This document shows, piece after piece, positions 5,629 to 28,218 of a stretch of 38,660 nucleotides of DNA (positions are counted from its first letter, which is position 1; every line of letters begins with the position of its first letter). The position numbers and the translations under genes are program-made. The stretch comes from Rhizobium sp. Q54 (GTDB lineage: Bacteria; Pseudomonadota; Alphaproteobacteria; Micropepsales; Micropepsaceae). The notes beneath the pieces are model-generated. The model did no database searches. It was given only the letters and a program-made list of their open reading frames with translations, and was not told where the DNA came from. The DNA lies in contig CAMCWK010000028.1 in assembly GCA_945882615.1 (NCBI GenBank), positions 1-38,660 on the forward strand, written 5' to 3'.

Positions 5629-5646
5629 CACATATTCTCCGATGCG

Positions 5647-7297: not shown

Positions 7298-7309
7298 GAC
7301 CTATTACCT

Positions 7310-7329
7310 ATCACACGATACCTTGTGAT
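7310..7329. promoter_or_regulatory. Candidate PadR operator: inverted repeat ATCACA-N8-TGTGAT
   Basis: ATCACA at 7310-7315 and TGTGAT at 7324-7329 form a perfect 6-bp dyad with an 8-base centre. A smaller TATC-N4-GATA dyad (7309-7320) overlaps it. The site lies between padR and the divergent deacetylase gene. PadR family operators are typically short dyads with centres of 8-10 bases near their own promoter, so autoregulation is plausible. The assignment is inferred from position and symmetry. Confidence 0.4.
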
Positions 7330-7399
7330 GCAAGATACCAATTCCCTTTTCTTTGGCCATTACCCGGCCCTTAAGGCTTTTGGCGGTAAAAATCCCGCC

Positions 7400-12761: not shown

Positions 12762-12956
12762 CCGGTCACCCTATAATGAGAGAGCGGGAATTTCCCAGCC
12801 GGTGGCAGGTATGACGGATTGTCAGAAATTATCATTAAATAACAATAGGTTACGACCAGGATTTTGCCCGTCGCAATCTGTCACCGAATGTCCCTCCCCC
12901 CCGGGGGAGCGATGATCTAATAACTGTCAGCCTGCGGGGGCGAACGCGCGTTGGAC

Positions 12957-14108
12957 ATGGATTCGGTTTTCACCACATTGGGCCTAGCCTTTTGCGCCAT
13001 TGCGCTGATCGGTGCGGGCTATGCCTTGCTGTCTGCCCTGTTGGCGGCGCGTTTCATGCGCCGCGCATCCACGGCCAATGCCGATCATCCCGCTGTCTCC
13101 ATTCTCAAGCCGCTGCATCAAAGCGAGCCGGACCTGGCCAAAAACCTGGAGACGGTCTTCAACCAGGCTTATCCGCATCCGGTGCAGATCGTGTTTGGCG
13201 CACATGATCTGGCCGATCCCGCCCTCGGCGTGGTGCGCGCGCTTCAGGCGAAGTACCCGCAGGTTGACACCGTCATTGTGGCCAGCGCGGCCTCCCATGG
13301 CGCCAACGCCAAGATTTCCAACCTGATCAACATGCTGCCGGCGGCCAAGCACGATGTGCTGGTGCTGTCGGACAGCGATATCGCGGTGAAACCGGACTGG
13401 TTGGAACAGGTCGTGTCTGCGCTGCATCGCCCCAACGTCGGCGTTGTGACCTGCTTTTACACCGGCGAGCCGGCGCAGGGGGCACACAGGCTGTGGTCGG
13501 GCCTGGCGGCGATGGGTACTTCTTACGGCTTTCTGCCCAATGCCATTGCGGGTTTCAGCCTGGGCCTGGCGGCGCCCTGTTTTGGTTCGACCATCGCGCT
13601 GCGGCGCCGGACGCTGAACGAGATCGGCGGCTTTGCGGCCTTCGCCGACCATCTGGCCGACGATTATGAGATCGGCCATGCCGTGCGCAGAGCCGGCCAT
13701 ACCCTAGCGGTTCCCGCCCTAGCGGTTGGCCATACCGCCGCGGAAAACAGCTTTGCAGACCTTTTCCGGCACGAGCTGCGCTGGACCCGGACCATCCGGC
13801 TGGTGAACCCGGCCGGCCACTTCGGCAGCATCGTCACCCACGGCTTGCCCTTTGCCCTGATGGGGGCGGTGCTGCTGGGATTTTCCCCCGCCGCGCTGGT
13901 GATTCTGGGCGCGGTCCTGGGCGCGCGTCTGGCCCTGAAATGGCGGATTGACCGCCTTTTTGCCACCCATGCCGGGCCCTGGTACCTGCTGCCGGTGCGA
14001 GATTTGCTGAGTTTTGTGGTGTTCCTGGCCTCCCTGTTCGGCGAAACAGTGCATTGGCGCGGAAGTCACTTTACGGTACAGCGCTGCGGCGCAATATCTT
14101 CCGGTTGA
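12957..14108 (+). CDS. hpnI: Hopanoid glycosyltransferase HpnI (ceramide glucosyltransferase-like)
   Basis: HpnI adds N-acetylglucosamine to bacteriohopanetetrol, the first step towards the cyclitol-ether head group. The 383-residue protein has an N-terminal membrane segment (about 5-32) and then a family-21-like GT-A domain: VSILKPLHQSEPDL, the metal-binding LSDSDIAV (138-141), DDYEIGHAVRRAG, and the acceptor motif ELRWTRTIR. Two or three membrane helices close the protein. The ATG at 12957 is chosen; a TTG two codons earlier is possible. It is the first gene of the long plus-strand hopanoid operon. A 15-base in-frame tandem duplication lies at 13702-13727. Confidence 0.93.
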   Translation: MDSVFTTLGLAFCAIALIGAGYALLSALLAARFMRRASTANADHPAVSILKPLHQSEPDLAKNLETVFNQAYPHPVQIVFGAHDLADPALGVVRALQAKYPQVDTVIVASAASHGANAKISNLINMLPAAKHDVLVLSDSDIAVKPDWLEQVVSALHRPNVGVVTCFYTGEPAQGAHRLWSGLAAMGTSYGFLPNAIAGFSLGLAAPCFGSTIALRRRTLNEIGGFAAFADHLADDYEIGHAVRRAGHTLAVPALAVGHTAAENSFADLFRHELRWTRTIRLVNPAGHFGSIVTHGLPFALMGAVLLGFSPAALVILGAVLGARLALKWRIDRLFATHAGPWYLLPVRDLLSFVVFLASLFGETVHWRGSHFTVQRCGAISSG

Positions 14109-14136
14109 CGTTCCTGAAGTTCCCGAGGTTTTGACC

Positions 14137-15570
14137 ATGTCGATGAAGACCCTTTTCCTGCAGGCCCCGTCCTTTGACGGCTTTGATGGCGGCGCCGGCT
14201 CGCGCTACCAGGCCAAGCGCGAGATCAAGAGCTTCTGGTATCCGACCTGGCTGGCCCAGCCCGCCGCGCTGGTGGAAAACTCCAAGCTGATCGACGCTCC
14301 GCCGCACAACACCTCGCTGGCCGAAGTGGTGGGCCAGGCCAAGGACTTTGACCTGGTGGTCGCGCACACCTCGGTGCCGTCCTTCAAGTCGGATGTGAAG
14401 GTGATCGAGGCCATGAAGGCCGCCAACCCGAATCTCAAGGCCGGGCTGATCGGCGCCAAGGTTGCCGTCAATGCCGAAGGGAGCCTGCGCGAAGGCGCGG
14501 CGATCGACTTCGTCGCCCGCAACGAGTTCGATTTCACCATCAAGGATGTCGCCGACGACATGCCCTGGGGCGAGATCAAGGGCATCTCCTACCGCAACAA
14601 GCAGGGCGTGATCGTGCACAATGCCGATCGCCCGATCATCGAGAATATGGACTCGCTGCCCTTCGTCACCCCGGTCTACAAGCGCGACCTGGTGATGGAG
14701 AATTACTTCATCGGCTATCTCAAGCACCCCTATATCTCGATCTATACGGGTCGCGGCTGCAAGTCGCGTTGCACCTTCTGCCTGTGGCCCCAGACCGTGG
14801 GCGGCCACAATTACCGCACCCGTAGCGTCGGCCATGTGGTGGAGGAGATCAAATGGGCGATGAAGGCCTTCCCCCAGACCAAGGAATTCTTCTTCGACGA
14901 CGACACCTTCACCGACGACCTGCCGCGCGCCGAAGCCATCGCCAAGGAGCTGGGCAAGCTGGGCATCCATTGGTCGTGCAACGCCAAGGCGAACGTGCCC
15001 TATGAATCGCTCAAGAAGCTGAAAGAGGGCGGCCTGCGCCTGCTGCTGGTCGGCTACGAATCCGGTAACCAGCAGATCCTGCACAACATCAAGAAGGGCA
15101 TGCGCATCGAGGTGGCCGAGAAGTTCACCCGCGACTGCCACACGCTGGGCATCCAGATTCACGGCACCTTCATCCTGGGCCTGCCGGGCGAAACCCTGGA
15201 AACCATGCGCGAAACGCGCGAATTCGCCAAGCGCATCAATCCGCACACCGTGCAGATCTCGCTGGCGGCGCCCTATCCCGGCACCTTCCTCTACAATCAG
15301 GCCTTGCAGAATGGCTGGCTGGACGAAGCCAATGCCGAACTGATCGACGAGAACGGCATCCAGATCGCGCCACTGCACTATCCCCATCTCAGCCACAAGG
15401 AAATCTTCGACTCGCTGGAGACCTTCTACCGCCAGTTCTATTTCCGTCCCGGCAAGATCGGCTCCATCGTCAAGGAGATGGTGACCCAGCCCGACATGAT
15501 GAAGCGTCGCCTGCGCGAGGGCGTGGAGTTCTTCCACTTCCTGAAAGACCGCAAGCAGCACGCCGCCTGA
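14137..15570 (+). CDS. hpnJ: Hopanoid radical SAM protein HpnJ (cyclitol ether formation)
   Basis: HpnJ converts glucosaminyl-bacteriohopanetetrol to the cyclitol ether by ring contraction of the sugar. The 477 residues comprise an N-terminal B12-binding-like domain (about 1-180) and a radical SAM barrel. The [4Fe-4S] motif is GRGCKSRCTFCLW, with Cys208, Cys212 and Cys215, followed by EFFFDDDTFTDD and GTFILGLPGET. The length is usual for HpnJ. The ATG at 14137 has a GAGG site 9 bases upstream. It sits 28 bases after hpnI and 4 bases before hpnK, matching the order I-J-K found in other bacteria that make the cyclitol ether. Confidence 0.95.
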   Translation: MSMKTLFLQAPSFDGFDGGAGSRYQAKREIKSFWYPTWLAQPAALVENSKLIDAPPHNTSLAEVVGQAKDFDLVVAHTSVPSFKSDVKVIEAMKAANPNLKAGLIGAKVAVNAEGSLREGAAIDFVARNEFDFTIKDVADDMPWGEIKGISYRNKQGVIVHNADRPIIENMDSLPFVTPVYKRDLVMENYFIGYLKHPYISIYTGRGCKSRCTFCLWPQTVGGHNYRTRSVGHVVEEIKWAMKAFPQTKEFFFDDDTFTDDLPRAEAIAKELGKLGIHWSCNAKANVPYESLKKLKEGGLRLLLVGYESGNQQILHNIKKGMRIEVAEKFTRDCHTLGIQIHGTFILGLPGETLETMRETREFAKRINPHTVQISLAAPYPGTFLYNQALQNGWLDEANAELIDENGIQIAPLHYPHLSHKEIFDSLETFYRQFYFRPGKIGSIVKEMVTQPDMMKRRLREGVEFFHFLKDRKQHAA

Positions 15571-15574
15571 TACC

Positions 15575-16417
15575 TTGAAACAGCTGATCGTCACGGCGGA
15601 TGACTTCGGCGCGGCGCTTGAAGTCAACAAGGCCGTCGAGCGCGCCCATCGCGACGGCATTCTGTCCGCCGCCAGCCTGATGGTGGCCGGCGAAGCGGCC
15701 GGCGACGCGGTGGCTCGCGCCCGCGCGCTTCCCTCACTGCGCGTGGGACTGCATCTGGTGCTGGTGGAGGGACGGCCGGTATTGCCGGCGTCCGCCGTTC
15801 CCGATCTGGTGGATTCCACCGGCCATTTCCGCACCGACATGGCGCGTGCCGGGGCCGCGATGTTCTTCTTGCCCAAGGTGCGCCGCCAGCTGGCGTGCGA
15901 GATCGAAGCCCAGTTCGCCGCCTTCGCCGCCACGGGCCTCAGGCTCGATCACGTCAATGCCCACAAGCATTTCCACCTGCACCCCACCATCGCAGGCGAA
16001 ATCCTGCGGGTAGCGCGCCAACACCGGGTGCGTGGCGCCCGGGTGCCGCTGGAGCCGCAGGCCGTGCTGGGCCGTATCGAACCGCACAAGGCTTCCGGCG
16101 TGGTGGCGCTGACCGCGCCTTTCGCAAGGATGCTGCGCGCCCGCTTCCGCCGCGCCGGCATCAAGGCCCCTGATGCCGTGTTTGGCCTGGCCTGGTCGGG
16201 CGCGATGACGGCGGACCGACTGGCGGGCCTGATCACCCACCTCCCGGAGGGCCTGACCGAGATCTACATGCACCCGGCCACGGGACCCTATCCCGGCTCG
16301 GCGCCCGGCTATCAGTATGAGCGTGAGCTGGCGGCGCTGACAGATCCGCGCATGCCCGCCCTGCTGGCGGCCGGGGGCATAAAAACCGGCGGCTTTTGGG
16401 ACTTCCCGGGCCAGTAG
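15575..16417 (+). CDS. hpnK: Hopanoid deacetylase HpnK (YdjC-like)
   Basis: HpnK removes the acetyl group from N-acetylglucosaminyl-bacteriohopanetetrol, giving the glucosamine form used by HpnJ. The 280-residue YdjC-family protein shows the metal-site motifs LIVTADDFG at residues 4-12, VGLHLVLVEG, and VNAHKHFHLHP. It starts with TTG at 15575, immediately after the hpnJ stop; no ATG lies near, and the family N-terminus (KQLIVTADDFG) begins right there. The unusual start may lower its expression relative to HpnJ. After its stop comes a 94-base gap carrying an FNR-like box, the only sizeable break inside the I-to-F gene run. Confidence 0.93.
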   Translation: MKQLIVTADDFGAALEVNKAVERAHRDGILSAASLMVAGEAAGDAVARARALPSLRVGLHLVLVEGRPVLPASAVPDLVDSTGHFRTDMARAGAAMFFLPKVRRQLACEIEAQFAAFAATGLRLDHVNAHKHFHLHPTIAGEILRVARQHRVRGARVPLEPQAVLGRIEPHKASGVVALTAPFARMLRARFRRAGIKAPDAVFGLAWSGAMTADRLAGLITHLPEGLTEIYMHPATGPYPGSAPGYQYERELAALTDPRMPALLAAGGIKTGGFWDFPGQ

Positions 16418-16436: not shown

Positions 16437-16511
16437 ATACGGCCGCCCATATTTTGCGGTTCAATTGGCTGGCCCAAAGGGGTATTGCAGAAGCGAATTC
16501 GGAGACCTTTC

Positions 16512-17417
16512 GTGAGCAGCCAGGCTTTCGCCATTCCGCCCGACCTGACCCGTGATACCGGCAACTGGCCGGGCGATGGGCCCATCCGTTTGGGCTCGGA
16601 CGAGCACAAGCGGCTGTTCTGCAAGACCCTCCTGGACACCCATGACCCCTACAAGCCGGCGGTGCTGGACTGGCCCAGGCTCGAAGCCGAGGCCGAGAAG
16701 CGCATCACCGCGCTGCCCATCTGGGATATCGCGGTGCAGACCGAGAACAAGGCGGGTCTGAATGTCTGCACCTATGCCGAGGGCGTGGGCGATGCGCTGC
16801 TGCGCAAGGCCATCGAACTGAACGGCTTTGAAGAACGCCGCCACCGCCATGTGCTGGCGAACCTGGTCGAGGCCTATGGCGTCAAGCTGGCGCCCGAACC
16901 GGTGCCGCAAAAGCCCAAGGACCCGGAATGGGCCTTCATGGTCACCGGTTACAGCGAGTGCATCGACAGCTTCTTCGCCTTCGGCCTGTTCAAGGCCGCC
17001 AAGGACACCGGCTATTTCCCGCCGGAACTGGTGCAGACCTTCGATCCGGTGGTGAATGAAGAGGCGCGGCACATCCTGTTCTTCGTCAACTGGATCGCCT
17101 GGCATCGCCGCAACATGCCTATCTGGCGCCGTCCTTACTTTGAACTTAAGGTGCTCGCGGTCTGGATTTTCCTGATCTATGAGCGCATCGGCATCGCCAA
17201 GGATGTTGGCCATGGCGAGCAGGATGCCAACTTCACCGTCAACGGCGCCGAGGCGCTGGGCTCCGACATCAATGTCGGAGAACTGGTCGCCCTATGCCTG
17301 GCCGAGAACAACCGCCGCCTGGCGCCCTATGACGCGCGCCTCAAGCGCCCGCGCTTTGTGCCGTTCATGGCAAAACTCGCCTTGAAGTTCATCGGTCCGA
17401 AAAAGAAAGCCACTTAA
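16512..17417 (+). CDS. Ferritin-like di-iron protein 1 in the hopanoid operon
   Basis: I do not recognise a named family. The 301-residue protein shows a complete four-helix di-iron ligand set: Glu78, Glu108-x2-His111 (in GFEERRHRHV), Glu149 (GYSECIDSFF) and Glu184-x2-His187 (NEEARHILFFVNW). This pattern is typical of carboxylate-bridged di-iron oxygenases, desaturases and related proteins. A hydrophobic stretch at about 211-224 could touch the membrane. The C-terminal motif ENNRRLAPYDARLKRPRF recurs in the next gene. The GTG start is set by GGAGA six bases before it. By position (after hpnK, before hpnL) it probably oxidises a hopanoid or its head group; a role in another lipid or as an oxygen-scavenging protein is possible. 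Confidence 0.82.
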   Translation: MSSQAFAIPPDLTRDTGNWPGDGPIRLGSDEHKRLFCKTLLDTHDPYKPAVLDWPRLEAEAEKRITALPIWDIAVQTENKAGLNVCTYAEGVGDALLRKAIELNGFEERRHRHVLANLVEAYGVKLAPEPVPQKPKDPEWAFMVTGYSECIDSFFAFGLFKAAKDTGYFPPELVQTFDPVVNEEARHILFFVNWIAWHRRNMPIWRRPYFELKVLAVWIFLIYERIGIAKDVGHGEQDANFTVNGAEALGSDINVGELVALCLAENNRRLAPYDARLKRPRFVPFMAKLALKFIGPKKKAT

Positions 17418-18266
17418 ATGAAGATCGGATCGCTGGAACATCGCGACACTTTCTGCCGCCACTTCATGCAGACTTATACGGAGTTCGATCCCGATACGCT
17501 GCCCTGGCCGGAGCTGGACGAAGAGGCGCTGAAGCGCCTGAAATCCGTACCCTTCTGGGAGGAGGTTTTCTACACCGAGCGCCGCGCCGGGGCGATCGTC
17601 GCCGAATTCGTCAAGACCGTGAAAGACCCGGTGATGCGCGAAGCCGTGGCGTTGCAGGGGTTCGAGGAAGCCCGTCACGCCAAGCTGATCCGGGTGATGA
17701 TCGAGAAATATGGCATCGATGCCGCCGAACGCCCGCTGGAAGACGTCAGCGACAATATTGAAACCCGCTTCAAGGATTTTGGCTTTGGCGAATGCATGGA
17801 TTCCTTCCTGGGCTTCGGCGTCTTCAAGATCGCCATGCAGTCCCAGTTTCTGCCCAAGGAGATGTTCGCCATCTTTGAAACCCTGATGTACGAGGAAACC
17901 CGCCACATCGTCTTCTTCGTCAACTGGATGGCCTACAATCAGGCGCAGAAGGGCTTTCTGGCGCGCGCCATGCTGCCGCTGACCGACTTGCGCTATTACA
18001 TGCGCGCCCTGGGCCGCATGATCGGCACCGCCAAGCGCGGCAAGGACCTGAATGATGGCAAGGAATTCTCCGCCACCCAGGCCAGCGTGTTCCTGGACGG
18101 CTTCACCTTCCGCCGCTTCCTGGAAGACTGTTATTCCGAGAACCGCCGCCGCATGGGTGCGTTTGAAGCGGAAATGCTGCGCCCCAGCTTCCTGCCCCAG
18201 CTGGCGCAAACCGCGCTGGGCGCCATGCGCCTGTGGAGCTTTCGCGCCAAGCCGCTTCCAGCTTGA
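17418..18266 (+). CDS. Ferritin-like di-iron protein 2 in the hopanoid operon
   Basis: This is a paralogue of the preceding gene, starting on the base right after its stop (TAA then ATG). The 282 residues keep the same ligand set: Glu54, Glu84-x2-His87 (GFEEARHAKL), Glu125 (GFGECMDSFL) and Glu160-x2-His163 (YEETRHIVFFVNW). The spacing between ligands is identical in both proteins (30, 38 and 35 residues between successive helices), so the four-helix core has no insertions. The C-terminal ENRRRMGAFEAEMLRPSF matches the other copy. The two may form a heterodimer or perform successive oxidations. It lies 16 bases before hpnL. Function is inferred from context only; the ligand set itself is plain. 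Confidence 0.82.
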   Translation: MKIGSLEHRDTFCRHFMQTYTEFDPDTLPWPELDEEALKRLKSVPFWEEVFYTERRAGAIVAEFVKTVKDPVMREAVALQGFEEARHAKLIRVMIEKYGIDAAERPLEDVSDNIETRFKDFGFGECMDSFLGFGVFKIAMQSQFLPKEMFAIFETLMYEETRHIVFFVNWMAYNQAQKGFLARAMLPLTDLRYYMRALGRMIGTAKRGKDLNDGKEFSATQASVFLDGFTFRRFLEDCYSENRRRMGAFEAEMLRPSFLPQLAQTALGAMRLWSFRAKPLPA

Positions 18267-18282: not shown

Positions 18283-19275
18283 ATGAAGTGGGGAGTCGTC
18301 CTGGCACTGCTGGCCGGCGTGGTCGCGGCGGTCTATCTGGTCTGGTCGATCGGCTTTGACCCGGTATGGGATGCCGTGGCGCGGGCCGGGTTCGGCGGGC
18401 TGGCGCTGCTTTGCCTCTATTCGGCGGTCATGTTCATCAGCCTGGCATTTGCCTGGTATTTCCTGATGCCCCCGGCCGAGCGCAGCCGGCTGTGGAATTT
18501 CTACATTGCTCGGCTGGTGCGCGATTCCATCGCCGAAATCTCGCCCTTCTCGCCGGTCGGCGGCATGGTGGCATCGGCGCGGCTGATGATCCTCAAGCGC
18601 ATGACGCCAGCCTATGCCGCGGGCTCGGTGGCGGCCGACACCACCACCGAAGCCATGGCGCAGGTGGTGTTCCTGGCCTTCGGGCTGGGGATTGGTCTGA
18701 CCCAGTTCCGCAACCTGGACGGCGCGGGCCCTCTGACCCTCTCAATGATCGTCATTCTGCTGCTGGCGGTGCCGGGCATTGCGCTGCTGATCTTTTTGCA
18801 GAAGCGCGGCGCCGGTTTTGCCGAGCGCATCGCCCGCAAATTCTTCCCCCAGATGCAGCAGGGCGTGTCGTTCCATCAGGCGATTGTCGAGCTTTACAGC
18901 TCGCCTTCGCGGCTGGCCGCGTCGGCGGGCTGGCACCTGGTGGCCTGGATCGGCAGCGGCGTCGGCACCTTCATCGCTTTCCGCCTGGTGGGCGGCGAGA
19001 TCAGCCTGCTCAATGCCATCGCCCTGGAAGCCCTGCTTTGCACCCTGCGCAGCATCGCCGCGCCCGTCCCCGCAGGCATTGGGGTGCAGGAATGGGGCTA
19101 TGCCATGCTGGCGCCGCAGTTCGGCATGCCGGCCGAGATGGGCCTGGCCGTGTCGCTGCTCAAGCGGGCGCGCGAGATTGTGCTGGGTGTCCCGGCTTTG
19201 CTGTACTGGCAGGCATTCGAAGGGCGCGCTGCATGGCGCGAGCCCCAACGCGCGGCGGGGGATCCCAATGTCTGA
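18283..19275 (+). CDS. hpnL: Hopanoid-associated membrane protein HpnL (LPG synthase TM-domain-like)
   Basis: This 330-residue integral membrane protein of the lysylphosphatidylglycerol-synthase/UPF0104 type has about seven to eight hydrophobic helices beginning at residue 3. Motifs ARLVRDSIAEISPFSPVGGM and PVPAGIGVQEWGYAML are typical of HpnL. Its role is not firmly established; lipid flipping or transport is a common suggestion. The last 8 bases overlap the start of hpnA, so translation is coupled. It directly follows the di-iron pair, so the three form a unit between hpnK and hpnA. Confidence 0.88.
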   Translation: MKWGVVLALLAGVVAAVYLVWSIGFDPVWDAVARAGFGGLALLCLYSAVMFISLAFAWYFLMPPAERSRLWNFYIARLVRDSIAEISPFSPVGGMVASARLMILKRMTPAYAAGSVAADTTTEAMAQVVFLAFGLGIGLTQFRNLDGAGPLTLSMIVILLLAVPGIALLIFLQKRGAGFAERIARKFFPQMQQGVSFHQAIVELYSSPSRLAASAGWHLVAWIGSGVGTFIAFRLVGGEISLLNAIALEALLCTLRSIAAPVPAGIGVQEWGYAMLAPQFGMPAEMGLAVSLLKRAREIVLGVPALLYWQAFEGRAAWREPQRAAGDPNV

Positions 19276-20257
19276 TATCGCTCTGGTGACAGGCGCTTCC
19301 GGCTTTGTCGGTTCGGCCGTGGCGCGCGCTTTGGTGGCCCGCGGCATGCGGGTGCGGGTGCTGATGCGCCCCACCGCTTCCCACGACAATATCGCGGGCA
19401 CCGCCTGCGAACCGGTTATCGGCGACATGCGGGATGAAGCATCGATGACCGCGGCGCTGAAGGGCGCGCGTTATCTGTTTCATGTCGCGGCCGATTACCG
19501 GCTTTGGGCGCGCGATCCGGGCGAGATCGAACGCAACAATCTGAAGGGCGCGCAGGCCGCGATGGGCGCGGCGCTGACATGCGGTGTGGAGCGGGTGGTC
19601 TACACCTCGTCCGTCGCCGCCCTGAAGCCGGGCGAGGCGGCGGTCGATGAAAGTTCGCGCCACACGCCCCAAAGCGTGATCGGCGCCTACAAGCGCAGCA
19701 AGCTGGTCGCCGAACGCGAGGTCGAGCGCCTGATCGAAAAGGAAGGACTGCCCGCCGTGATCGTGGCGCCGTCCACCCCCATCGGCCCGCGCGACATCAA
19801 GCCGACGCCGACGGGCCGCATCATTGTCGAAGCCGCGACGGGGCGCATGCCCGCCTTTGTCGATACCGGCCTCAATCTGGTCCATGTGGATGACGTCGCC
19901 CAGGGCCATCTGCTGGCGCTGGACAAGGGACGGGTGGGCGAGAATTACATCCTGGGCGGCGAGGACGTGTCGCTGGAAGTCATGCTGGCCGACATCGCCG
20001 CCATGGCCGGACGCAAGGCCCCCACCATCAAGCTGCCGCGCGCGCCGCTGTTCCCGCTGGCCTGGGGCGCGGAGTTCATCGCCCGCCTGACCGGCAAGGA
20101 ACCGTTCCTCACCGCCGATGCCTTGCGCATGTCGCGTTACCGCATGTTCTTTTCGTCGGAAAAGGCAAAACGCGAACTGGGCTATACCGCGCGGCCCTAT
20201 CGCGAGGGCCTGTCCGACGCACTCTCCTGGTTCGCCCAGCACGGGTACCTCAGATGA
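19268..20257 (+). CDS. hpnA: Hopanoid-associated sugar epimerase/dehydrogenase HpnA
   Basis: This 329-residue extended short-chain dehydrogenase has the N-terminal NAD(P)-binding motif LVTGASGFVGSAVA, the segment YTSSVAALKPG, and the catalytic pair in GAYKRSKLVAE (YxxxK). HpnA is conserved in hopanoid clusters and is thought to act on the side chain or sugar head group, but its exact reaction is not settled. The ATG at 19268 lies inside the end of hpnL, and the stop overlaps the hpnB start by 4 bases. The start is chosen because the Rossmann motif begins seven residues in. Confidence 0.92.
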   Translation: MSDIALVTGASGFVGSAVARALVARGMRVRVLMRPTASHDNIAGTACEPVIGDMRDEASMTAALKGARYLFHVAADYRLWARDPGEIERNNLKGAQAAMGAALTCGVERVVYTSSVAALKPGEAAVDESSRHTPQSVIGAYKRSKLVAEREVERLIEKEGLPAVIVAPSTPIGPRDIKPTPTGRIIVEAATGRMPAFVDTGLNLVHVDDVAQGHLLALDKGRVGENYILGGEDVSLEVMLADIAAMAGRKAPTIKLPRAPLFPLAWGAEFIARLTGKEPFLTADALRMSRYRMFFSSEKAKRELGYTARPYREGLSDALSWFAQHGYLR

Positions 20258-21417
20258 TCGCGGGTATTCTGTTCGGCTTTCTGCCGCTGGCGGTGTGGCT
20301 GTATCTGCTGCTGTTTCACAGGGGCTTCTGGCGGCTGCGCGAACGCGACACGCTTGCCGTGCGCGAGCCCGACCGCTGGCCCTCGGTGGTGGCAGTGGTG
20401 CCGGCCCGCAACGAGGCCGATGTGATCCAGCGCAGCATCGGCAGCCTGATCGCCCAGGACTATCCGGGTCAATTTCATATTGTGCTGGTGGACGACCAGT
20501 CGGGTGACGGCACCGCCGATCTGGCCAAGGCGCTGAACGCGCCGCGCCTGACCGTGCTGACCGGCGCCGACCGGCCGGCTGGCTGGACCGGAAAGCTGTG
20601 GGCGATGCATCAGGGCAGCGAACAGGCCGCCCTGCGCGCGCCTGAGTTCATCTGGTTCACCGATGCCGATATTGCCCATACGCCGGAAAATCTCAGCCGG
20701 CTGGTGGCGCGCGCCGAGGAAGGGGGCAAGGTCCTGGTGTCGCTGATGGCGCGGCTCTCGTGCAAGACGGCGTCCGAGCATTTCCTGATCCCCGCCTTTG
20801 TCTTTTTCTTCGACATGCTGTTTCCCTTTGGCGCGGTCAACGATCCCGAATCCAAAGTCGCGGCGGCGGCGGGCGGCTGCATGCTGGCGCGGCGCGGCGC
20901 GCTGGAAAAGGCCGGCGGCATTGCCGCCATCCGCCACAATATCATCGATGATTGCGCCCTGGGTCGGGCCATGAAGGGCCAGGGGCCGATCTGGCTGGGA
21001 CTGACCGACCGCGCATTGTCCTTGCGCTCTTACGAGCATCTGGCCGAGATCCGCCAGATGGTGGCGCGCTCGGCCTATGCCCAGCTGAACTATTCGCCCT
21101 TGCTGCTGGTGGGCACACTGCTCGGCCTGATGATGGTCTATATCGCCCCGGTGATGACGGCGCTGTTCGCCTGGGGCATCTCTCAGCTTGCCGGATGGGC
21201 GGCCTGGCTGATCATGGCGGTTATGTTTCAGCCCATCCTGCGCTTTTACCGCCTGTCACCCTTATGGGGCGCGGCCTTGCCGCTGATCGGCGCTTTCTAT
21301 GCCGCCTTCACCCTGGAATCGGCGATACAATACTGGTCCGGCAAGGGCGGCATGTGGAAAGGCCGCGCGCAAGCTGGAGCCGAGAAGGCCAATGCGGGTG
21401 GAAGCGAGAAGGCATGA
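20254..21417 (+). CDS. hpnB: Hopanoid-associated glycosyltransferase HpnB
   Basis: This 387-residue membrane glycosyltransferase of family 2 has an N-terminal membrane helix (about 2-21) and then a GT-A domain with VVPARNEADVI, LVDDQSGDGTADLA, the DxD segment WFTDADIAHT and RHNIIDDCALGRAM. Three to four C-terminal helices follow. HpnB is standard in hpn clusters; its acceptor is presumed to be a hopanoid intermediate, which is inference. Both ends overlap neighbours by 4 bases (ATGA), so it is tightly coupled with hpnA and hpnC. The C-terminal tail of Ala, Gly and Lys is poorly conserved and of no clear function. Confidence 0.92.
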   Translation: MIAGILFGFLPLAVWLYLLLFHRGFWRLRERDTLAVREPDRWPSVVAVVPARNEADVIQRSIGSLIAQDYPGQFHIVLVDDQSGDGTADLAKALNAPRLTVLTGADRPAGWTGKLWAMHQGSEQAALRAPEFIWFTDADIAHTPENLSRLVARAEEGGKVLVSLMARLSCKTASEHFLIPAFVFFFDMLFPFGAVNDPESKVAAAAGGCMLARRGALEKAGGIAAIRHNIIDDCALGRAMKGQGPIWLGLTDRALSLRSYEHLAEIRQMVARSAYAQLNYSPLLLVGTLLGLMMVYIAPVMTALFAWGISQLAGWAAWLIMAVMFQPILRFYRLSPLWGAALPLIGAFYAAFTLESAIQYWSGKGGMWKGRAQAGAEKANAGGSEKA

Positions 21418-22259
21418 GCGCGGTCGCCGAACTTCAGTCGGGCAAGGGTCACAAGGACGAGAATTTTCCCGTCGCCTCGGTCCTGATCGCGCCGCGTCAC
21501 CGCCCGCCGGTGCTGGCCTTCTACCGTTTCGTGCGCGCCGCCGACGACGTTTCGGACAATCCATCCGCCACACCGGAAGAAAAGCTGGCGCTGCTGGAAC
21601 AGATGCGCGCCAGCCTGGTGGGCGAAAGCGATGCCGTACGTGAAGGCGTGGCATTGCGGACGATCCTGGCCGAGCGCGGTCTGTCGCCGGTCCATGCGTT
21701 GGACCTCCTGGAGGCCTTTCGCCGTGATTGCACCAAGCTGCGCTACCAAAGCTGGGACGAGCTGATCGATTACTGCCGCTACAGCGCCATGCCGGTGGGC
21801 CGCTTTGTGCTGGAGGTGCATGGCGAGCCGCAGAGTCTGTGGCCCGCCAATGACGCGCTGTGTGCTGCGCTGCAGGTGATCAACCACTTGCAGGATTGCG
21901 GCAAGGATTACCGCGAGCTGAACCGCGTTTATATTCCCGAGCCGCTGCTGGCCGGCATCGGGGTCGAGAGGCTGGCCGGGGACAAGGCCAGCCTCGCTCT
22001 GGCGGGCGTGATCGCGGAGCTTGCCCGCCGCAATGCCGAGCTGCTGGCACGCTCCCGCGCCTTTTCGCAGGGCATAAAGGACAGCCGGCTTGCGCTGGAG
22101 GTCGATCTCATTCAGACACTGGCCGACGATCTTAACACCTTGCTGATGACCCGCGATCCGCTGTCGCAATCGGTGCATCATTCCAAATGGGATGTGGCGA
22201 CGCTATTCCTGAAACGCCTTCCTGCCTTCGCGCTGATGCGCCTGAGACGCTCCCGATGA
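21414..22259 (+). CDS. hpnC: Hydroxysqualene synthase HpnC
   Basis: HpnC turns presqualene diphosphate into hydroxysqualene, the second step of the HpnD-HpnC-HpnE route to squalene. The 281-residue trans-isoprenyl synthase-like protein has the first Asp-rich motif RAADDVSD (Asp44, Asp45, Asp48) and a degenerate second one, INHLQDCGKDYRELN, followed by VYIP. Squalene/phytoene synthase fold features such as YCRYSAMPVGRFVLEV are clear. The ATG is in the hpnB stop (ATGA), and its own stop overlaps the start of hpnD by 4 bases. Assignment as HpnC rather than HpnD rests on gene order and on the degenerate second motif. Confidence 0.93.
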   Translation: MSAVAELQSGKGHKDENFPVASVLIAPRHRPPVLAFYRFVRAADDVSDNPSATPEEKLALLEQMRASLVGESDAVREGVALRTILAERGLSPVHALDLLEAFRRDCTKLRYQSWDELIDYCRYSAMPVGRFVLEVHGEPQSLWPANDALCAALQVINHLQDCGKDYRELNRVYIPEPLLAGIGVERLAGDKASLALAGVIAELARRNAELLARSRAFSQGIKDSRLALEVDLIQTLADDLNTLLMTRDPLSQSVHHSKWDVATLFLKRLPAFALMRLRRSR

Positions 22260-23110
22260 ACAATGCAGAAAATATCGGCGGCGCGGCCGCCGCCGCGGTG
22301 CAAAAAAAAGCCGCCGGCAGTTCCTTCTACATGGCCATGCGGCTGATGCCGCGCGAGGAACGCGACGCCATGTTCGCGATCTATGCCTTCTGCCGCAAAG
22401 TGGACGACATCGCCGATGACGGCATCGGCACCCGGCCCGAGCGTCACGAAAAGCTGGAGCAATGGCGCGCCGACCTGGCCGGCCTGTATGCCGGTACAAA
22501 GCCGCCGCGCGTCGCCTTCCTGGCGCCGGCCGTGACGCAGTACGGCCTCAGGCTCGATGATTTCATCGCCGTGCTGGATGGCATGGATATGGACGTGGCC
22601 GAAGACATTGTCGCACCCGACCTGGCCACGCTGGATATCTATTGTGACCGGGTGGCGAGCGCGGTGGGGCGGCTGTCCATCAAGGTGTTCGGCATGGACG
22701 AGGGGCCGGGCTTTGATCTGGCCCATCATCTGGGCCGGGCGCTGCAGCTGACCAATATCCTGCGCGACATCGATGAAGACGCCGCCATCGGCCGCCTCTA
22801 TCTGCCGCGCGAATATCTGCAGGAAGCGGGCATCACCGCGCTCGATCCCAAGGCCATCATCGCCAGTCCCTGCATCGACACCGTCTGCCGCCGCGTCGCC
22901 AGCCTCGCGCATCATCATTATGACGAAGCGCAGCGCATTCTGGCCGCCCGTCCCAAGGGCCGTATCAAGACCCCGCGCCTGATGGGTGCGGTCTATTCCG
23001 AGATTCTCAAGGCCAGTGAAGCGCAAGGGTTCGCCGCGCCGCGCCGCCGTGTTTCGCTCCCCCGGCGCCGCTTGCTGTCGCTGGTGCTGCGCCAAGGGCT
23101 CTTTTCTTGA
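22256..23110 (+). CDS. hpnD: Presqualene diphosphate synthase HpnD
   Basis: HpnD joins two farnesyl diphosphates head to head, giving presqualene diphosphate. The 284-residue protein shows both metal-binding motifs of the squalene/phytoene synthase family: FCRKVDDIADDGIG and LTNILRDIDEDAAIGRLYLP, with YCDRVASAVGRLS between them. A run of eight A residues (22302-22309) encodes Gln-Lys-Lys in the poorly conserved N-terminus and could promote slippage. It overlaps hpnC upstream and hpnE downstream by 4 bases each, so the three squalene-forming enzymes should be made in step. Confidence 0.95.
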   Translation: MNNAENIGGAAAAAVQKKAAGSSFYMAMRLMPREERDAMFAIYAFCRKVDDIADDGIGTRPERHEKLEQWRADLAGLYAGTKPPRVAFLAPAVTQYGLRLDDFIAVLDGMDMDVAEDIVAPDLATLDIYCDRVASAVGRLSIKVFGMDEGPGFDLAHHLGRALQLTNILRDIDEDAAIGRLYLPREYLQEAGITALDPKAIIASPCIDTVCRRVASLAHHHYDEAQRILAARPKGRIKTPRLMGAVYSEILKASEAQGFAAPRRRVSLPRRRLLSLVLRQGLFS

Positions 23111-24378
23111 CGGGCAAGGCCTACATTGTGGGCGGCGGCCTTGCCGGCCTGTCCGCCGCCACCGTTCTGGCGGGGCGCGGCGTATCGGTCGAGGTGATTG
23201 AAGCGGCGGGGCAGGCGGGCGGCCGCTGCCGCTCCTATTTCGATCCGGCCATGGGCTGCGTGATCGACAATGGCAATCATTTGGTGCTGTCGAGCAACCA
23301 GGGGGTGAATACCTATCTGGCGCGCATCGGTGCGAGAGATGCGCTGGCCGGTCCGCGGAAAGCCGAATTTCCCTTTGCCGATTTGCGCGACGGCACGCGC
23401 TGGACCTTGCGCCCCAATGAAGGACCGATCCCCTATTGGTTTGCATTGGGCAAGCGCCGGGTCCCGGGCAGCCATGCCGGCGACTATCTGCAGTATGCGC
23501 CGCTGATGTGGGCGGGCCCCCAGGTGCGGCTGGACGCGGTGGTCCATGAGCGCGGCCAACTATGGCAGCGTCTGATGCGGCCTTTCCTGCTGGCGGCGCT
23601 GAACACCGCACCGGAGGAATCTTCCGCCAAACTAGCGGGTGCGATCCTGCGCGAGACCCTGGCCAAGGGCGGGCGTCATTACCGCCCGCGCATCGCCCAT
23701 CCCACCCTGGCGGCGGCCTTTGTCGAGCCGGCGCTGAAATATCTGGAAGAGCACAAGGGGAGCTTGCGCCTCAGCACCCGCCTGCGCGGCATGACCCTGG
23801 GTCCGCGCGAAGTCATGACGCTCGACATCGCCGATGCCACCTTACCCGTGGGCCCGGGCGATGCGGTGGTGCTGGCGGTACCGCCCTGGGCCGCCTCCGA
23901 CCTGATCCCCGGCCTCACCGTGCCCGACGATTTTCGCGCCATCGTCAACGCGCACTTCAAGATGACGCCGCCCCCCTCGTTCCTTGCGAAGAATAGCGCG
24001 CCCGCCATGCTGGGGGTGATCGGCGGCACGGCGGAATGGATTTTCGGCTTCGACGACCGGATCTCGGTGACGGTATCGGGCGCCGACGCCATCGTGGATC
24101 AGGACCGTGAAGACCTGGCAATGCGCATCTGGGCCGATGTCGCCAAGGCGCTGAATATCGACGCTCCGATGCCGGCATGGCAGATCGTCAAGGAAAAGCG
24201 CGCCACCTTCGCCGCCACGCCGGCGCAGGATGCCCGCCGTCCACACCCGAAAACCCGCTGGCGCAACCTGTTCCTGGCCGGCGACTGGACCCAGACCGGA
24301 CTGCCGGCGACCATCGAGGGCGCCCTGCGTTCGGGTGAAACCGCGGCCGCTTTGGCGCTGCGTCACCTCGGCTTATAG
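23107..24378 (+). CDS. hpnE: Hydroxysqualene dehydroxylase HpnE (FAD amine-oxidase fold)
   Basis: HpnE reduces hydroxysqualene to squalene. The 423-residue flavoprotein has an N-terminal dinucleotide-binding motif AYIVGGGLAGLSAATVLAGR and the second signature EAAGQAGGRCRSY. The C-terminal FAD motif is LFLAGDWTQTGLPATIEGA. It starts with TTG at 23107, overlapping the hpnD stop as TTGA; the FAD motif begins four residues in, so no later start is acceptable. It is followed after 7 bases by shc. The weaker start codon may set a lower level than HpnC and HpnD. Confidence 0.94.
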   Translation: MTGKAYIVGGGLAGLSAATVLAGRGVSVEVIEAAGQAGGRCRSYFDPAMGCVIDNGNHLVLSSNQGVNTYLARIGARDALAGPRKAEFPFADLRDGTRWTLRPNEGPIPYWFALGKRRVPGSHAGDYLQYAPLMWAGPQVRLDAVVHERGQLWQRLMRPFLLAALNTAPEESSAKLAGAILRETLAKGGRHYRPRIAHPTLAAAFVEPALKYLEEHKGSLRLSTRLRGMTLGPREVMTLDIADATLPVGPGDAVVLAVPPWAASDLIPGLTVPDDFRAIVNAHFKMTPPPSFLAKNSAPAMLGVIGGTAEWIFGFDDRISVTVSGADAIVDQDREDLAMRIWADVAKALNIDAPMPAWQIVKEKRATFAATPAQDARRPHPKTRWRNLFLAGDWTQTGLPATIEGALRSGETAAALALRHLGL

Positions 24379-24385
24379 TTCGGCC

Positions 24386-26314
24386 ATGAACCAGCTCAAC
24401 CCGGGCGAATTTGCCAGCGTGGAAGGCGCCATCCGCGCCGCTACCGACGCGATTCTGGCCCAGCAAAAGCCGGACGGACACTGGGTCTATGAGCTGGAAG
24501 CCGATGCCACCATCCCGGCGGAGTATGTGCTGCTGGTACACTATCTGGCGGAAGAGCCGAACCTGGAGCTGGAAAAGAAGATCGGCGTCTATCTGCGCCG
24601 CATTCAGGGCGCCCATGGCGGCTGGCCGCTTTATCACGAAGGCGCCTTCGATATCAGCGCGACGGTGAAAGCCTATTTCGCCCTCAAGATGATTGGCGAC
24701 GATATCAACGCCGATCACATGGTACGTGCCCGCGCGGCGATCCGGGAACGCGGCGGCGCGATCAAGGCCAATGTCTTCACCCGCATCCTGCTGGCGCTGT
24801 ATGGCCAGACCAGTTGGGCCAATGTCCCCACCGTACCGGTCGAGCTGATCCTGCTGCCGCGCTGGTTCCCGGTGCACTTGTCCAAGATGAGCTATTGGGC
24901 GCGCACCGTGATCGTGCCGCTGCTGGTGCTGGCGGCCAGGCAGCCGCTGGCGCGCAACCCGCGCGGCGTCCATATCCCCGAACTGTTCGTGGAGGGGGTA
25001 CCCGCCGCCTCAAAGCGCGCGCCGCACCAGAGCGCCGGCTGGTCCTTCTTCTTCAATGCGCTGGACCGGGTGCTCAAGATCGTGCCCTGGCCCAAGGGCT
25101 TGCGCGACCGTGCCATTGAAAAATGCCGCGTGTGGACCACCGAGCGTCTGAACGGCGAAGACGGGCTGGGCGCGATCTATCCCGCCATGGCCAACAGCGT
25201 GATGATGTATGACGTGCTGGGCTATCCGCAAAGCCATCCCGACCGCGCCATTGCGCGGCGGTCGGTTGAGAAGCTGCTGGTGATCAAGGAGGATGAAGCC
25301 TATTGCCAGCCCTGCGTCTCGCCGGTGTGGGACACGGCGCTGGTCGCCCATGCCTTGCTGGAAACGGGCGATGCCCGGGCGCTGGATGCGGTTACGCGTG
25401 GCCTGAACTGGCTCAAGCCCTTGCAGGTGCTGGACGTCAAAGGCGACTGGGCCGAGGAAAAGCCCGATGTGCGCCCCGGCGGCTGGGCCTTCCAGTACCG
25501 CAACGACCATTATCCCGATCTGGACGATACCGCCGTGGTGGTGATGGCGATGGACCGTGCAGCCACCCGCGCCGAACACCAGGACGGCATCGCGCGGGGC
25601 GCGGAATGGGTCAAAGGGCTGCAAAGCCGCGATGGCGGCTGGGGCGCCTTCGACGCTGACAATTCCTATTACTATCTCAACAACATTCCCTTTGCCGATC
25701 ACGGTGCGCTGCTCGACCCGCCGACCGAAGACGTGTCGGGCCGCTGCGTCGGCATGCTGGCGCAATTGGGCGCGAAGCCCGATGACCCCAAGCTGAAGGC
25801 CGGCATCGAATATCTGATCAAGACCCAGCGCGATGATGGCAGCTGGTGGGGCCGCTGGGGCGTCAACTACATTTACGGCACCTGGTCGGCGCTGGCGGGT
25901 CTGAACGGCGCGGGTCTGGGCCCCGATCATCCTGCCATGAAAAAGGGCGCGGACTGGCTGGCCGCGATCCAGAATCCCGATGGCGGCTGGGGCGAGAATT
26001 GCGACAGCTACAAGCTGGATTATCGTGGCTATGAGCCCGCACCCTCGACCGCGTCACAGACCGCCTGGGCGCTGCTGGGCCTGATGGCGGCGGGCCAAGT
26101 GGATCATCCGGCGGTGGCGCGCGGCGTCGCCTATCTGAAAGCCACCCAACAGAGCGATGGCCTCTGGACCCAGGCCCATTACACCGGCGGCGGCTTTCCA
26201 CGCGTCTTCTATCTCAACTATCACGGCTATCCGAAATTCTTCCCGCTCTGGGCGCTGGCGCGCTACCGCAATCTCAAGAGCAGTAATTCTCGCCGCGTGG
26301 AATTTGGCCTGTGA
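24386..26314 (+). CDS. shc: Squalene-hopene cyclase (HpnF)
   Basis: This monotopic membrane enzyme cyclises squalene to hopene and hopanol. It has 642 residues, the normal length. The catalytic acid motif DLDDTA spans residues 378-383, with Asp380 equivalent to the protonating aspartate of Alicyclobacillus SHC. Several QW motifs are visible (LQSRDGGWGAFD, QRDDGSWWGRWG, IQNPDGGWGENC, QQSDGLWTQ). The segment PPTEDVSGR and the terminal GGGFPRVFYLNYHGYPKFFP are typical. The ATG at 24386 lies 7 bases after the hpnE stop. A dispersed palindrome follows the gene and separates it from hpnG. Confidence 0.97.
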   Translation: MNQLNPGEFASVEGAIRAATDAILAQQKPDGHWVYELEADATIPAEYVLLVHYLAEEPNLELEKKIGVYLRRIQGAHGGWPLYHEGAFDISATVKAYFALKMIGDDINADHMVRARAAIRERGGAIKANVFTRILLALYGQTSWANVPTVPVELILLPRWFPVHLSKMSYWARTVIVPLLVLAARQPLARNPRGVHIPELFVEGVPAASKRAPHQSAGWSFFFNALDRVLKIVPWPKGLRDRAIEKCRVWTTERLNGEDGLGAIYPAMANSVMMYDVLGYPQSHPDRAIARRSVEKLLVIKEDEAYCQPCVSPVWDTALVAHALLETGDARALDAVTRGLNWLKPLQVLDVKGDWAEEKPDVRPGGWAFQYRNDHYPDLDDTAVVVMAMDRAATRAEHQDGIARGAEWVKGLQSRDGGWGAFDADNSYYYLNNIPFADHGALLDPPTEDVSGRCVGMLAQLGAKPDDPKLKAGIEYLIKTQRDDGSWWGRWGVNYIYGTWSALAGLNGAGLGPDHPAMKKGADWLAAIQNPDGGWGENCDSYKLDYRGYEPAPSTASQTAWALLGLMAAGQVDHPAVARGVAYLKATQQSDGLWTQAHYTGGGFPRVFYLNYHGYPKFFPLWALARYRNLKSSNSRRVEFGL

Positions 26315-26446: not shown

Positions 26447-26463
26447 AATGTGAGTTTGTGGCG

Positions 26464-27126
26464 ATGACGGTTCTTGCGGTGACGGGTCTTGCGAAAGAGG
26501 CCGAAATGGTCGGTGTCGCCGGCGTGGTGGCGGTGGCGGGCGGCGGTGACGGGGAATGTCTGGCGGCCAAGCTCAATGCCCTGCATGGCGATATTCGCGG
26601 CGTGATCTCCATCGGGCTGGGCGGCGGATTGTCGCCGCATCTCAAGGTGGGTGACGTGGTGATCGCCGATCGCATCATTACCGGCGCGGAAAGCTGGGAC
26701 TGTCATGAAGGCTGGCGGGTGCGGCTGATGTCGCGCCTGCCGCTGGCCCATCAGGGTCAGATCTTCGGCAGCGACATCATCATCCATGAGGCTGTGACCA
26801 AGACCGGCCTGCACGACACCACCGGCGCGCTGGCGGTGGACATGGAATCCCAGGTGGCGGCGCGCTTTGCCGCCAAACGCAATCTGCCGCTGGCGGCATT
26901 AAGGGTGATTTCGGATGACGCGGCGCATGTGCTGCCGCCGGCCGCATTGGTGGCGATGAAGCCGGATGGCGGCATCGCCATCGGCCGGGTTCTGGGATCG
27001 CTGCTGCGCCGTCCCACACAGATACCGTCGCTGATCCGCACCGCGCGCGGATCGAACAAGGCCTTTGCGGAATTACTCCGCTGCCGCGATCTCTGTGGTG
27101 TTGGAATTGCCGGCCTTGATCTGTGA
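26464..27126 (+). CDS. hpnG: Adenosylhopane nucleosidase HpnG
   Basis: HpnG removes adenine from adenosylhopane, giving ribosylhopane (or its phosphate) on the way to bacteriohopanetetrol. The 220-residue protein has the nucleoside-phosphorylase fold: VLAVTGLAKEAEM at the start, ISIGLGGGLSPHLKVGDVVI, and the purine-site signature LAVDMESQVAARFA. ATG at 26464 is chosen; a GTG two codons upstream is equally in frame. The last 54 bases overlap, on the opposite strand, the 3' end of hpnH, the enzyme that supplies its substrate. It is the last gene of the long plus-strand run. Confidence 0.93.
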   Translation: MTVLAVTGLAKEAEMVGVAGVVAVAGGGDGECLAAKLNALHGDIRGVISIGLGGGLSPHLKVGDVVIADRIITGAESWDCHEGWRVRLMSRLPLAHQGQIFGSDIIIHEAVTKTGLHDTTGALAVDMESQVAARFAAKRNLPLAALRVISDDAAHVLPPAALVAMKPDGGIAIGRVLGSLLRRPTQIPSLIRTARGSNKAFAELLRCRDLCGVGIAGLDL

Positions 27127-28218
27127 CATCTTGTGCTCGACATGGCGCGAGAAGGTGAACTCCGCCGGGCGCTGATTGGCCAGTGAGATTTCTGGCGCCA
27201 TCGGGCCGTCGGTCTTCACGCCGCGCATCAGGATGGGCAGCATTTTCAGCGGCTTCTTGATGCTGTCGGTGGCGGCGGTGCCTTCAAAGCCGCAATGGAC
27301 CATGCAGTTGGCGCATTTCTCGTACTTGCCGACGCCATACTTCTCCCACTCCGTGCCTTCCATCAGCTCGGTGAAGGTCTTGGCATAGCCTTCGCCCAGC
27401 AGGTAGCAGGGCTTCTGCCAGCCGAACACGGTCAGCAGCGGCATCGACCAGGGGGTGCATTCATAGGTCTGGTTGCCCGCCAGGAAGTCCATGAACAGCG
27501 GCGAGTTGGTGAACTTCCAGTCCCTGCCGCCGCGGCCGCGCGCAAGGATGTCGCGGAACATGTTCTTGGTGCGCTCGCGATTCAGGAAGTGCTCCTGGTC
27601 AGGGGCGCGCTCATAGGCGTAGCCCGGCGAGACGGTGATGCCGTCCACGCCCATTTCCATCATCAGGTCGAAGAATTTGGCGGTGCGCTCGCCATCGGCG
27701 CCGTCGAACAAGGTGCAGTTGATCTGGGTGCGGAAGCCCTTGGACTTGGCCAGCTTGATCGCGGCGATGGCGCGGTCATAGGTGCCGTCCTGGCAGACCG
27801 ACTTGTCGTGCATCTCCTTGTCGCCATCCAGGTGGATCGACCAGGTGAAATTGGGGTGCGGCTTGTACTGGTCGATCTTCTTGGCCAGCAGCAGCGCGTT
27901 GGTGCACAGGATCACGAACTTGTCGCGTTCCAGATAGCCTTCGACGATCCTGGCCATGTCGCGGTGGAGCAGGGGCTCGCCGCCGGCGATCGAGACGGCG
28001 GGCGCGCCGCATTCGTCGATCGCGTCCATGCAGGCCTGCACCGAGAGGCGCTGGTTGAGGATCTCATCGGGATAATCGATCTTGCCGCAGCCGGCGCAGG
28101 CCAGGTTGCAGCGGAACAGCGGTTCCAGCATCAGCACTAGCGGGTACTTCTTGCCCGACAGCTGCTTCTTGACGACATAGGCGCCGATCTTGGCGGCCTG
28201 GCGAAACGGAAGTCCCAT
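27073..28218 (-). CDS. hpnH: Adenosylhopane synthase HpnH (radical SAM)
   Basis: HpnH uses a SAM-derived adenosyl radical to attach adenosine to hopene, the first step of side-chain building. The 381-residue protein carries FRCNLACAGCGKIDYP with Cys37, Cys41 and Cys44 binding the [4Fe-4S] cluster. It then has SIAGGEPLLH and a cysteine-rich C-terminal region (KCANCMVHCGFEG) that may hold further metal. The ATG at 28218 lies 3 bases after the ispH stop, so the two Fe-S enzymes are cotranscribed. The gene converges on and overlaps hpnG by 54 bases. The tail after about residue 365 is low in conservation, which makes that overlap tolerable. Confidence 0.95.
   Translation of the reverse strand: MGLPFRQAAKIGAYVVKKQLSGKKYPLVLMLEPLFRCNLACAGCGKIDYPDEILNQRLSVQACMDAIDECGAPAVSIAGGEPLLHRDMARIVEGYLERDKFVILCTNALLLAKKIDQYKPHPNFTWSIHLDGDKEMHDKSVCQDGTYDRAIAAIKLAKSKGFRTQINCTLFDGADGERTAKFFDLMMEMGVDGITVSPGYAYERAPDQEHFLNRERTKNMFRDILARGRGGRDWKFTNSPLFMDFLAGNQTYECTPWSMPLLTVFGWQKPCYLLGEGYAKTFTELMEGTEWEKYGVGKYEKCANCMVHCGFEGTAATDSIKKPLKMLPILMRGVKTDGPMAPEISLANQRPAEFTFSRHVEHKMSQIKAGNSNTTEIAAAE

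Follow-up and report, generated by a model that had tools for sequence, protein, structure and literature searches.

Which step of lipid metabolism would call for two tandem di-iron proteins inside a set of hopanoid genes? The question is raised by a contig of Rhizobium sp. Q54 (CAMCWK010000028.1; "the window" is the whole stretch analysed, 38,660 nucleotides), in which two adjoining genes, here called P1 and P2, lie between hpnK and hpnL:

16512..17417, + strand: P1, predicted ferritin-like di-iron protein, 301 aa, ligands E78, E108, H111, E149, E184 and H187
17418..18266, + strand: P2, paralogue of P1, 282 aa, ligands E54, E84, H87, E125, E160 and H163

The genes for bacteriohopanepentols and -hexols, whose side chains serve geochemists as lipid markers, are described as unknown in PMC12583986 (Nov 2025; this and the other papers are cited from the available parts of their text), where the surroundings of the hpn genes were scanned without yielding a candidate. 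No gene assigned to the pentol or hexol step was found in the open-licence PMC literature. We propose that P1 and P2, which are paralogues, act in extended-hopanoid (bacteriohopanepolyol) synthesis as ferritin-like di-iron monooxygenases. Each would activate O2 at an E/ExxH/E/ExxH site, with O2 use and metal content presumed, and would hydroxylate an unactivated CH2 of the C5 side chain, the presumed substrate, beside the existing polyol. P1 would act on C-31, leading from the tetrol to the pentol level, and P2 would then act on C-30, leading from the pentol to the hexol level; P1 would work without P2, P2 would need the product of P1, and in some lineages the two would act as one fused protein. 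That the family serves extended-hopanoid metabolism is very probable. A role in side-chain hydroxylation is somewhat favoured: the fold and ligands point that way, as do the exclusive co-occurrence with hpnH, the nested distribution of the two types and a single strain with matched genotype and phenotype. The assignment of P1 to C-31 and P2 to C-30 is tentative, falling a little short of even. For the picture as a whole, in which a so far undescribed family of di-iron lipid hydroxylases uses O2 to act stepwise on C-31 and then C-30, supplies the missing pentol and hexol genes and stands beside a separate O2-independent route in anaerobes, we see an even chance.

The open reading frames (ORFs) and their junction proved to be as a sequence-only reading of the window had described them, in tandem and joined stop-to-start. 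P1 starts with GTG at 16512 (an in-frame TTG lies upstream at 16485), and its TAA (17415-17417) is followed directly by the ATG of P2 at 17418. The two proteins share 33% identity across 267 residues (E=3e-60) and are thus paralogues, each present in a single copy; no third family member was found in the window's genome. Both contain the E, ExxH, E, ExxH ligand set with identical spacing, and all ligand positions given in that reading are exact, letter for letter. All 107 aligned relatives keep the same six ligands, and the equal spacing claimed for the pair (30/3/38/35/3) is kept in 106 of the 107, far beyond chance. The proposed C-terminal ENxRR...RPxF motif holds in part: E, P and the second R of the RR pair never vary among the aligned members, at least 95% of which also keep N and the first R, and the final F is not conserved. 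Members were drawn from 40 named loci, genome stretches and two plasmid records; the 118 extracted sequences and the two window proteins were reduced to 107 by dropping two sequences cut by contig ends and 11 repeats of included loci, and in the P1 rows fusions are represented by their first 295 or 320 residues. The family is sharply bounded, because in a profile search of 397 genomes of the phylum at E<=1e-5 the best matches of all 15 carriers reached E<=1e-105 and nothing weaker appeared. Compared across 25 close loci, P2 (90.5%) and P1 (84.1%) are conserved in their best aligned segments to a degree comparable with HpnH (88.5%) and Shc (84.1%), the other hpn proteins being less conserved (67-79%).

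P1 and P2 stay below every cut-off in Pfam and NCBIfam scans, and a search for solved relatives by sequence gave no significant match (best profile match E 0.042). An AlphaFold2 model of P1 built from 38 rows (mean local confidence, pLDDT, 86.9; predicted template modelling score, pTM, 0.87) has a ferritin/R2-like fold, with E78, E108/H111, E149 and E184/H187 on successive helices (71-90, 95-121, 138-166 and 171-201), forming in the model a four-helix bundle with one ligand group per helix. Foldseek placed R2lox at the top for this model (E 1.6e-3, TM 0.52; none at E<=1e-3). VIA-align gave Z values up to 14.5 (R2lox and the R2 protein of ribonucleotide reductase, RNR) and 13.6 for the azoxy synthase VlmB (8wvr), which is among the nearest solved structures. 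As a Z near 14 is only modestly above values reached by helical bundles, the fold assignment draws on the fold and the invariant ligands jointly; taken together, they make it likely that the P1/P2 family belongs with the ferritin-like or R2-like di-iron oxygenases, with a predicted metal cluster. A model of the natural P1-P2 fusion L037, built from 15 rows, reached a pTM of 0.50, and the placement of its two halves is therefore not trusted; Foldseek again listed R2lox first for this model, with no match at E<=0.001.

To relate the family to hopanoid synthesis, we used HpnH as the co-occurrence marker. In 387 genomes of the class (Alphaproteobacteria) the family is found in 29 and HpnH in 98, and all 29 carriers are within the 98; the family is absent from all 289 hpnH-negative genomes (Fisher p 1e-19, without correction for kinship). 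Counted by genus, the 17 carrier genera lie within the 68 hpnH genera of 263 (p 2e-11). The 397 phylum genomes, which overlap with the class sample and are not independent of it, contain HpnH in 49 and the family in 15; all 15 carriers have hpnH, and the family occurs in 0 of 348 hpnH-negative genomes. In 14 control genomes HpnH itself was found in none. What links the family to hopanoids is co-occurrence more than gene position. The main hpn cluster holds family genes in six of the 29 class carriers, and in G360 they lie only beside an hpnL homologue. Linkage to hpn genes does recur in separate groups, namely the window's relatives, the Enhydrobacter type and Cupriavidus. In Enhydrobacter aerosaccus P2 adjoins hpnN and P1 adjoins hpnA, at opposite ends of the hpn cluster, and in Cupriavidus metallidurans P1 is found beside hpnB, hpnA, ispH, hpnH and hpnN.

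Within the family, the two types are distributed in a nested fashion. All 29 class carriers have a P1-type gene (that of G053, a contig-edge piece, was judged by identity), and the nine with a P2-type gene each have a P1-type gene as well (p 6e-6 for P2 spread by chance over the 98 hpnH genomes), leaving 20 with P1-type alone. A quick tree parts P1-type from P2-type at one branch with support 100; it carries a long-branch warning that includes the Methylococcus and cyanobacterial rows, both of which group with P2-type. In six loci P1 and P2 are fused into a protein of 580-582 residues, with one more cut by a contig end at 527, and G282, which also has hpnH and hpnJ, contains a fusion of about 650 residues with a longer charged linker (L094:9273-11222). 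The P1 halves of the two fusion kinds fall in separate regions of the quick tree, and this placement suggests that the two kinds arose in separate fusion events. As a side observation, L040, L041 and L042 hold lone family members in cyanobacterial metagenome-assembled genomes (MAGs) of Xenococcaceae and Gloeomargarita, P2-side and on long branches; none of the window's hpn genes was found near them, with a weak hpnJ-like match in L040.

The commonness of P1 and the rarity of P2 parallel what is reported of the lipids, since pentols are common and hexols, found in Rhodospirillales alone, are rarer (PMC12583986). That paper places pentols and hexols in Rhodospirillales and Sphingomonadales and describes them as essentially absent from Hyphomicrobiales, with 1% for one species in its Table 3; the alphaproteobacterium Rhizomicrobium palustre is listed with 1% pentol plus hexol. 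In Acetobacteraceae, sphingomonads and Reyranellaceae such chains are reported to make up a substantial part of the hopanoids. The closest comparison is offered by Enhydrobacter aerosaccus, for which the hopanoids of strain DSM 8914 are given as 77% pentol plus hexol and 1% unsaturated (PMC12583986 Table 3). The genome, that of ATCC 27094, carries both P1 and P2 and has no HpnJ above the cut-off (best 141.7 vs 577.6 bits). We take ATCC 27094 and DSM 8914 both to be the type strain of the species. In Burkholderiales, 13 plasmid records contain one copy each, and both copies that were placed in the tree are P1-type. The Burkholderia cenocepacia replicon that was searched has P1-type only; a putative bacteriohopanepentol cyclitol ether is reported for this species from one strain and medium (PMC8560942), a match at species level, as the sequenced strain differs from the lipid strain.

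Several observations weigh against side-chain hydroxylation by the pair. In 22 of the 29 class carriers no hpn gene lies in the stretch scanned (about 10 kb on each side where the contig allowed; several stretches ended at contig ends). Close relatives aside, most homologues thus lie apart from hpn genes, one of two outcomes for homologues that the sequence-only reading had named as counting against it; the other, homologues in genomes lacking shc, did not appear with hpnH rather than shc as the marker (0/289 and 0/348 hpnH-negative genomes). All-against-all ORF clustering within 7 kb of 26 loci revealed no recognisable recurrent ferredoxin or reductase as redox partner. Genotype and phenotype are matched in one strain only, E. 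aerosaccus, and among hpnH genomes P1 is positively associated with hpnJ (odds 4.2, p 0.003). The anaerobic sulfate reducer Desulfovibrio is cited for aminotetrol (31-OH) and trace aminopentol (PMC5100885), and some O2-independent route of C-31 hydroxylation must therefore exist. Rhodopila LVNP, which makes a bacteriohopanepentol cyclitol ether, was grown with and without oxygen, and the available part of PMC8590665 leaves unstated which culture was analysed. Most screened Type I methanotrophs are reported to make aminopentol (PMC5100885), and in the family of the Methylococcus MAG the gene is present in 6 of 31 genomes, one copy each, the one placed falling on the P2 side. Because of the Desulfovibrio, Rhodopila LVNP and methanotroph data, the pair is at most one of several routes.

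The carriers unlinked to hpn genes would also suit a role outside hopanoid metabolism (iron handling, peroxide defence or another lipid) that merely tracks hopanoid makers, as would a weak similarity to rubrerythrin and ferritin: P2 scores 13.4 bits for Rubrerythrin and 19.9 for Ferritin_2, below the Pfam gathering scores of 22.8 and 24.7, and some relatives match Rubrerythrin better (18/40 at E<=0.1, best E 5.4e-6) and may pass. We consider such a role quite improbable, given the absence of the family from every hpnH-negative genome of both samples and the repetition of hpn linkage in separate groups. The association with hpnJ and the position between hpnK and hpnL would agree with modification of a cyclitol or glucosamine head group together with HpnI, HpnJ and HpnK. 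This chemistry was rejected as the general role and is highly improbable, because 14 of the 29 carriers lack hpnJ (15 have it) and 14 of the 29 hpnJ genomes lack P1; these counts omit G059 (209 bits, below cut-off, hpnH-negative) and include three genomes with below-cut-off HpnJ fragments, none of them P1 carriers. Enhydrobacter, with no HpnJ above cut-off, likewise speaks against it.

Closer to side-chain hydroxylation is a route by oxidation, in which the di-iron enzyme would dehydrogenate C-32/C-31 to a 32-oxo or enol form and another enzyme would add water. An oxo/hydratase route of this kind is proposed for pentols in PMC12583986, which cites a 32-oxo hopanoid in Zymomonas, and the distribution data fit it equally well; it nevertheless appears unlikely, as two enzymes would be needed per position and the neighbour clustering shows no recurrent hydratase or dehydrogenase gene next to P1/P2. 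Desaturation of the hopanoid ring at delta-6 or delta-11 could draw on the superfamily fold that soluble desaturases share (2uw1, Foldseek rank 39, E 0.044), and the genes for it are described as unknown (PMC12583986), but Enhydrobacter has both P1 and P2 yet so few unsaturated hopanoids, which disfavours this role and leaves it quite unlikely. That P1 and P2 form one heterodimeric enzyme acting once would accord with the tandem genes and the fusions; P1-type genes without P2-type in 20 of the 29 carriers (of these 20, G053 is a contig-edge piece) and the full ligand set in both proteins make it very unlikely. An obligate heterodimer as the general rule is thus disfavoured, and the natural fusions still allow coupling. 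From the suggestion, made in the sequence-only reading, of an oxygen-dependent modification of ring, side chain or cyclitol, a di-iron-type step tied to hopanoids survives and the side chain fits, whereas the ring and the cyclitol do not.

If side-chain hydroxylation by P1 and P2 is true, one of two routes to pentol and hexol side chains carries an oxygen requirement. The pair are specific, testable candidates for the genes of bacteriohopanepentol and -hexol synthesis, and knowing the enzymes would allow producers to be predicted from genomes and would reveal, for a given lineage, whether oxygen is required at this step.

The hopanoid genes around the pair in the window are:

12951..14108, + strand: hpnI, bacteriohopanetetrol (BHT) glycosyltransferase (TIGR03472, 435.9 bits)
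14014..15570, + strand: hpnJ, B12/radical SAM (S-adenosylmethionine) protein (TIGR03471, 811.5 bits; true start inside the frame, model match from about 14143)
15575..16417, + strand: hpnK, deacetylase (TIGR03473, 362.7 bits)
18283..19275, + strand: hpnL, flippase-like membrane protein, adjoining P2 (TIGR03476, 250.4 bits)
19280..20257, + strand: hpnA (TIGR03466, 463.1 bits; start approximate, match from residue 155 of the 18818 open frame)
20254..21417, + strand: hpnB (TIGR03469, 523.3 bits)
21444..22259, + strand: hpnC (TIGR03464, 254.6 bits; start approximate, match from residue 165 of the 20952 open frame)
22187..23110, + strand: hpnD (TIGR03465, 316.4 bits)
23107..24378, + strand: hpnE (TIGR03467, 393.6 bits)
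24230..26314, + strand: shc (hpnF), squalene-hopene cyclase (TIGR01507, 757.7 bits; start within the frame not fixed)
26458..27126, + strand: hpnG (TIGR03468, 192.3 bits)
27073..28218, - strand: hpnH, adenosyl-hopene transferase, the co-occurrence marker (TIGR03470, 524.9 bits)
30415..31035, + strand: hpnM (TIGR03481, 160.4 bits, cut-off 160.1)
31146..33749, - strand: hpnN, hopanoid RND (resistance-nodulation-division) transporter (NF052374, 1104.3 bits)

All genes from hpnA to hpnN (hpnF being shc) score above their NCBIfam cut-offs, in the order hpnI, J, K, P1, P2, L, A, B, C, D, E, shc, G (+), hpnH and ispH (-), a farnesyl diphosphate synthase gene and hpnM (+), and hpnN (-). The "complete hopanoid operon" of the sequence-only reading is therefore complete as a gene set and is not one operon, because the minus strand carries hpnH, ispH and hpnN. 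In seven MAG loci, two of which are titled Rhodospirillales, P1-P2-hpnL lies apart from other hpn genes in the stretch covered. Each of the seven (L029, L030, L032, L034, L035, L037 and L038) has an hpnL homologue (33-37% identical) after P1-P2, and HpnL (flippase-like, function unknown) is therefore tied to the pair. Besides antisense or overlapping frames of P1/P2, homologues of hpnL, hpnA and hpnB are recurrent neighbours in the 26 clustered loci. Further recurrent neighbours are presumably an alanine-dehydrogenase-like protein (four groups), an FAD (flavin adenine dinucleotide) oxidase and an ABC (ATP-binding cassette) protein; what we take to be the alanine-dehydrogenase-like gene lies 16-21 bp from P1 in three families (L104, L099 and L100).

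Divergent from hpnI, at 10935-12761 (-), lies a gene for a tetratricopeptide repeat (TPR) protein with a C-terminal 2-oxoglutarate (2OG)-Fe(II) oxygenase domain (PF13759, E 3.3e-22). It is a second oxygenase beside the hpn set, present in 12 of 25 close loci, possibly through mere shared synteny. Elsewhere the window contains a tandem pair of DUF2807 proteins (4912-5631 and 5647-6390, both -), a protein with a polysaccharide-deacetylase domain (7280-8140, +; PF01522, E 4e-16) and a 390-aa open frame without a Pfam match (36697-37869, -), adjoined on the same strand by SseB-type and phosphoglycerate-dehydrogenase genes.

Among known di-iron proteins, R2lox and RNR R2 have the closest predicted fold and the same carboxylate/ExxH type of metal site, and an R2lox is reported to hydroxylate alkanes (PMC10867098). 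The P1/P2 family differs from them in sequence, with about 16% identity, and is without evidence here for a Mn/Fe cofactor or a radical tyrosine; the R2lox model NF006200 was matched by one of 40 members (E 0.045) and was not listed for P1 or P2. MiaE, the tRNA ms2io6A hydroxylase, is likewise a ferritin-like hydroxylase and the second-best profile match among solved sequences (5ux1, E 0.056, not significant), but acts on another class of substrate. AcsF, the Mg-protoporphyrin monomethyl ester oxidative cyclase, is a di-iron oxygenase whose model NF010172 is matched by seven of 40 members at E<=0.1 and by P2 at E 1.8e-4, although the match of P2 is short and partial (20.8 bits vs a cut-off of 391) and P1 is not listed. 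The AurF/VlmB N-oxygenases resemble the family in a weak profile match (16/40 members, best E 0.0074) and in fold (8wvr, the Z of 13.6 above), whereas their reaction is amine N-oxygenation rather than an attack on a lipid CH2, and P1 reaches 11.6 bits against the PF11583 gathering score of 29.6. Within hopanoid metabolism the nearest parallels are HpnP, HpnR and HpnJ, which also carry out side reactions on hopanoids and are patchily distributed, HpnP and HpnR often outside the main cluster (PMC12583986). These are radical SAM enzymes, whereas P1 and P2 would bring to the same lipids the di-iron type, which is not listed in the available part of the PMC12583986 survey.

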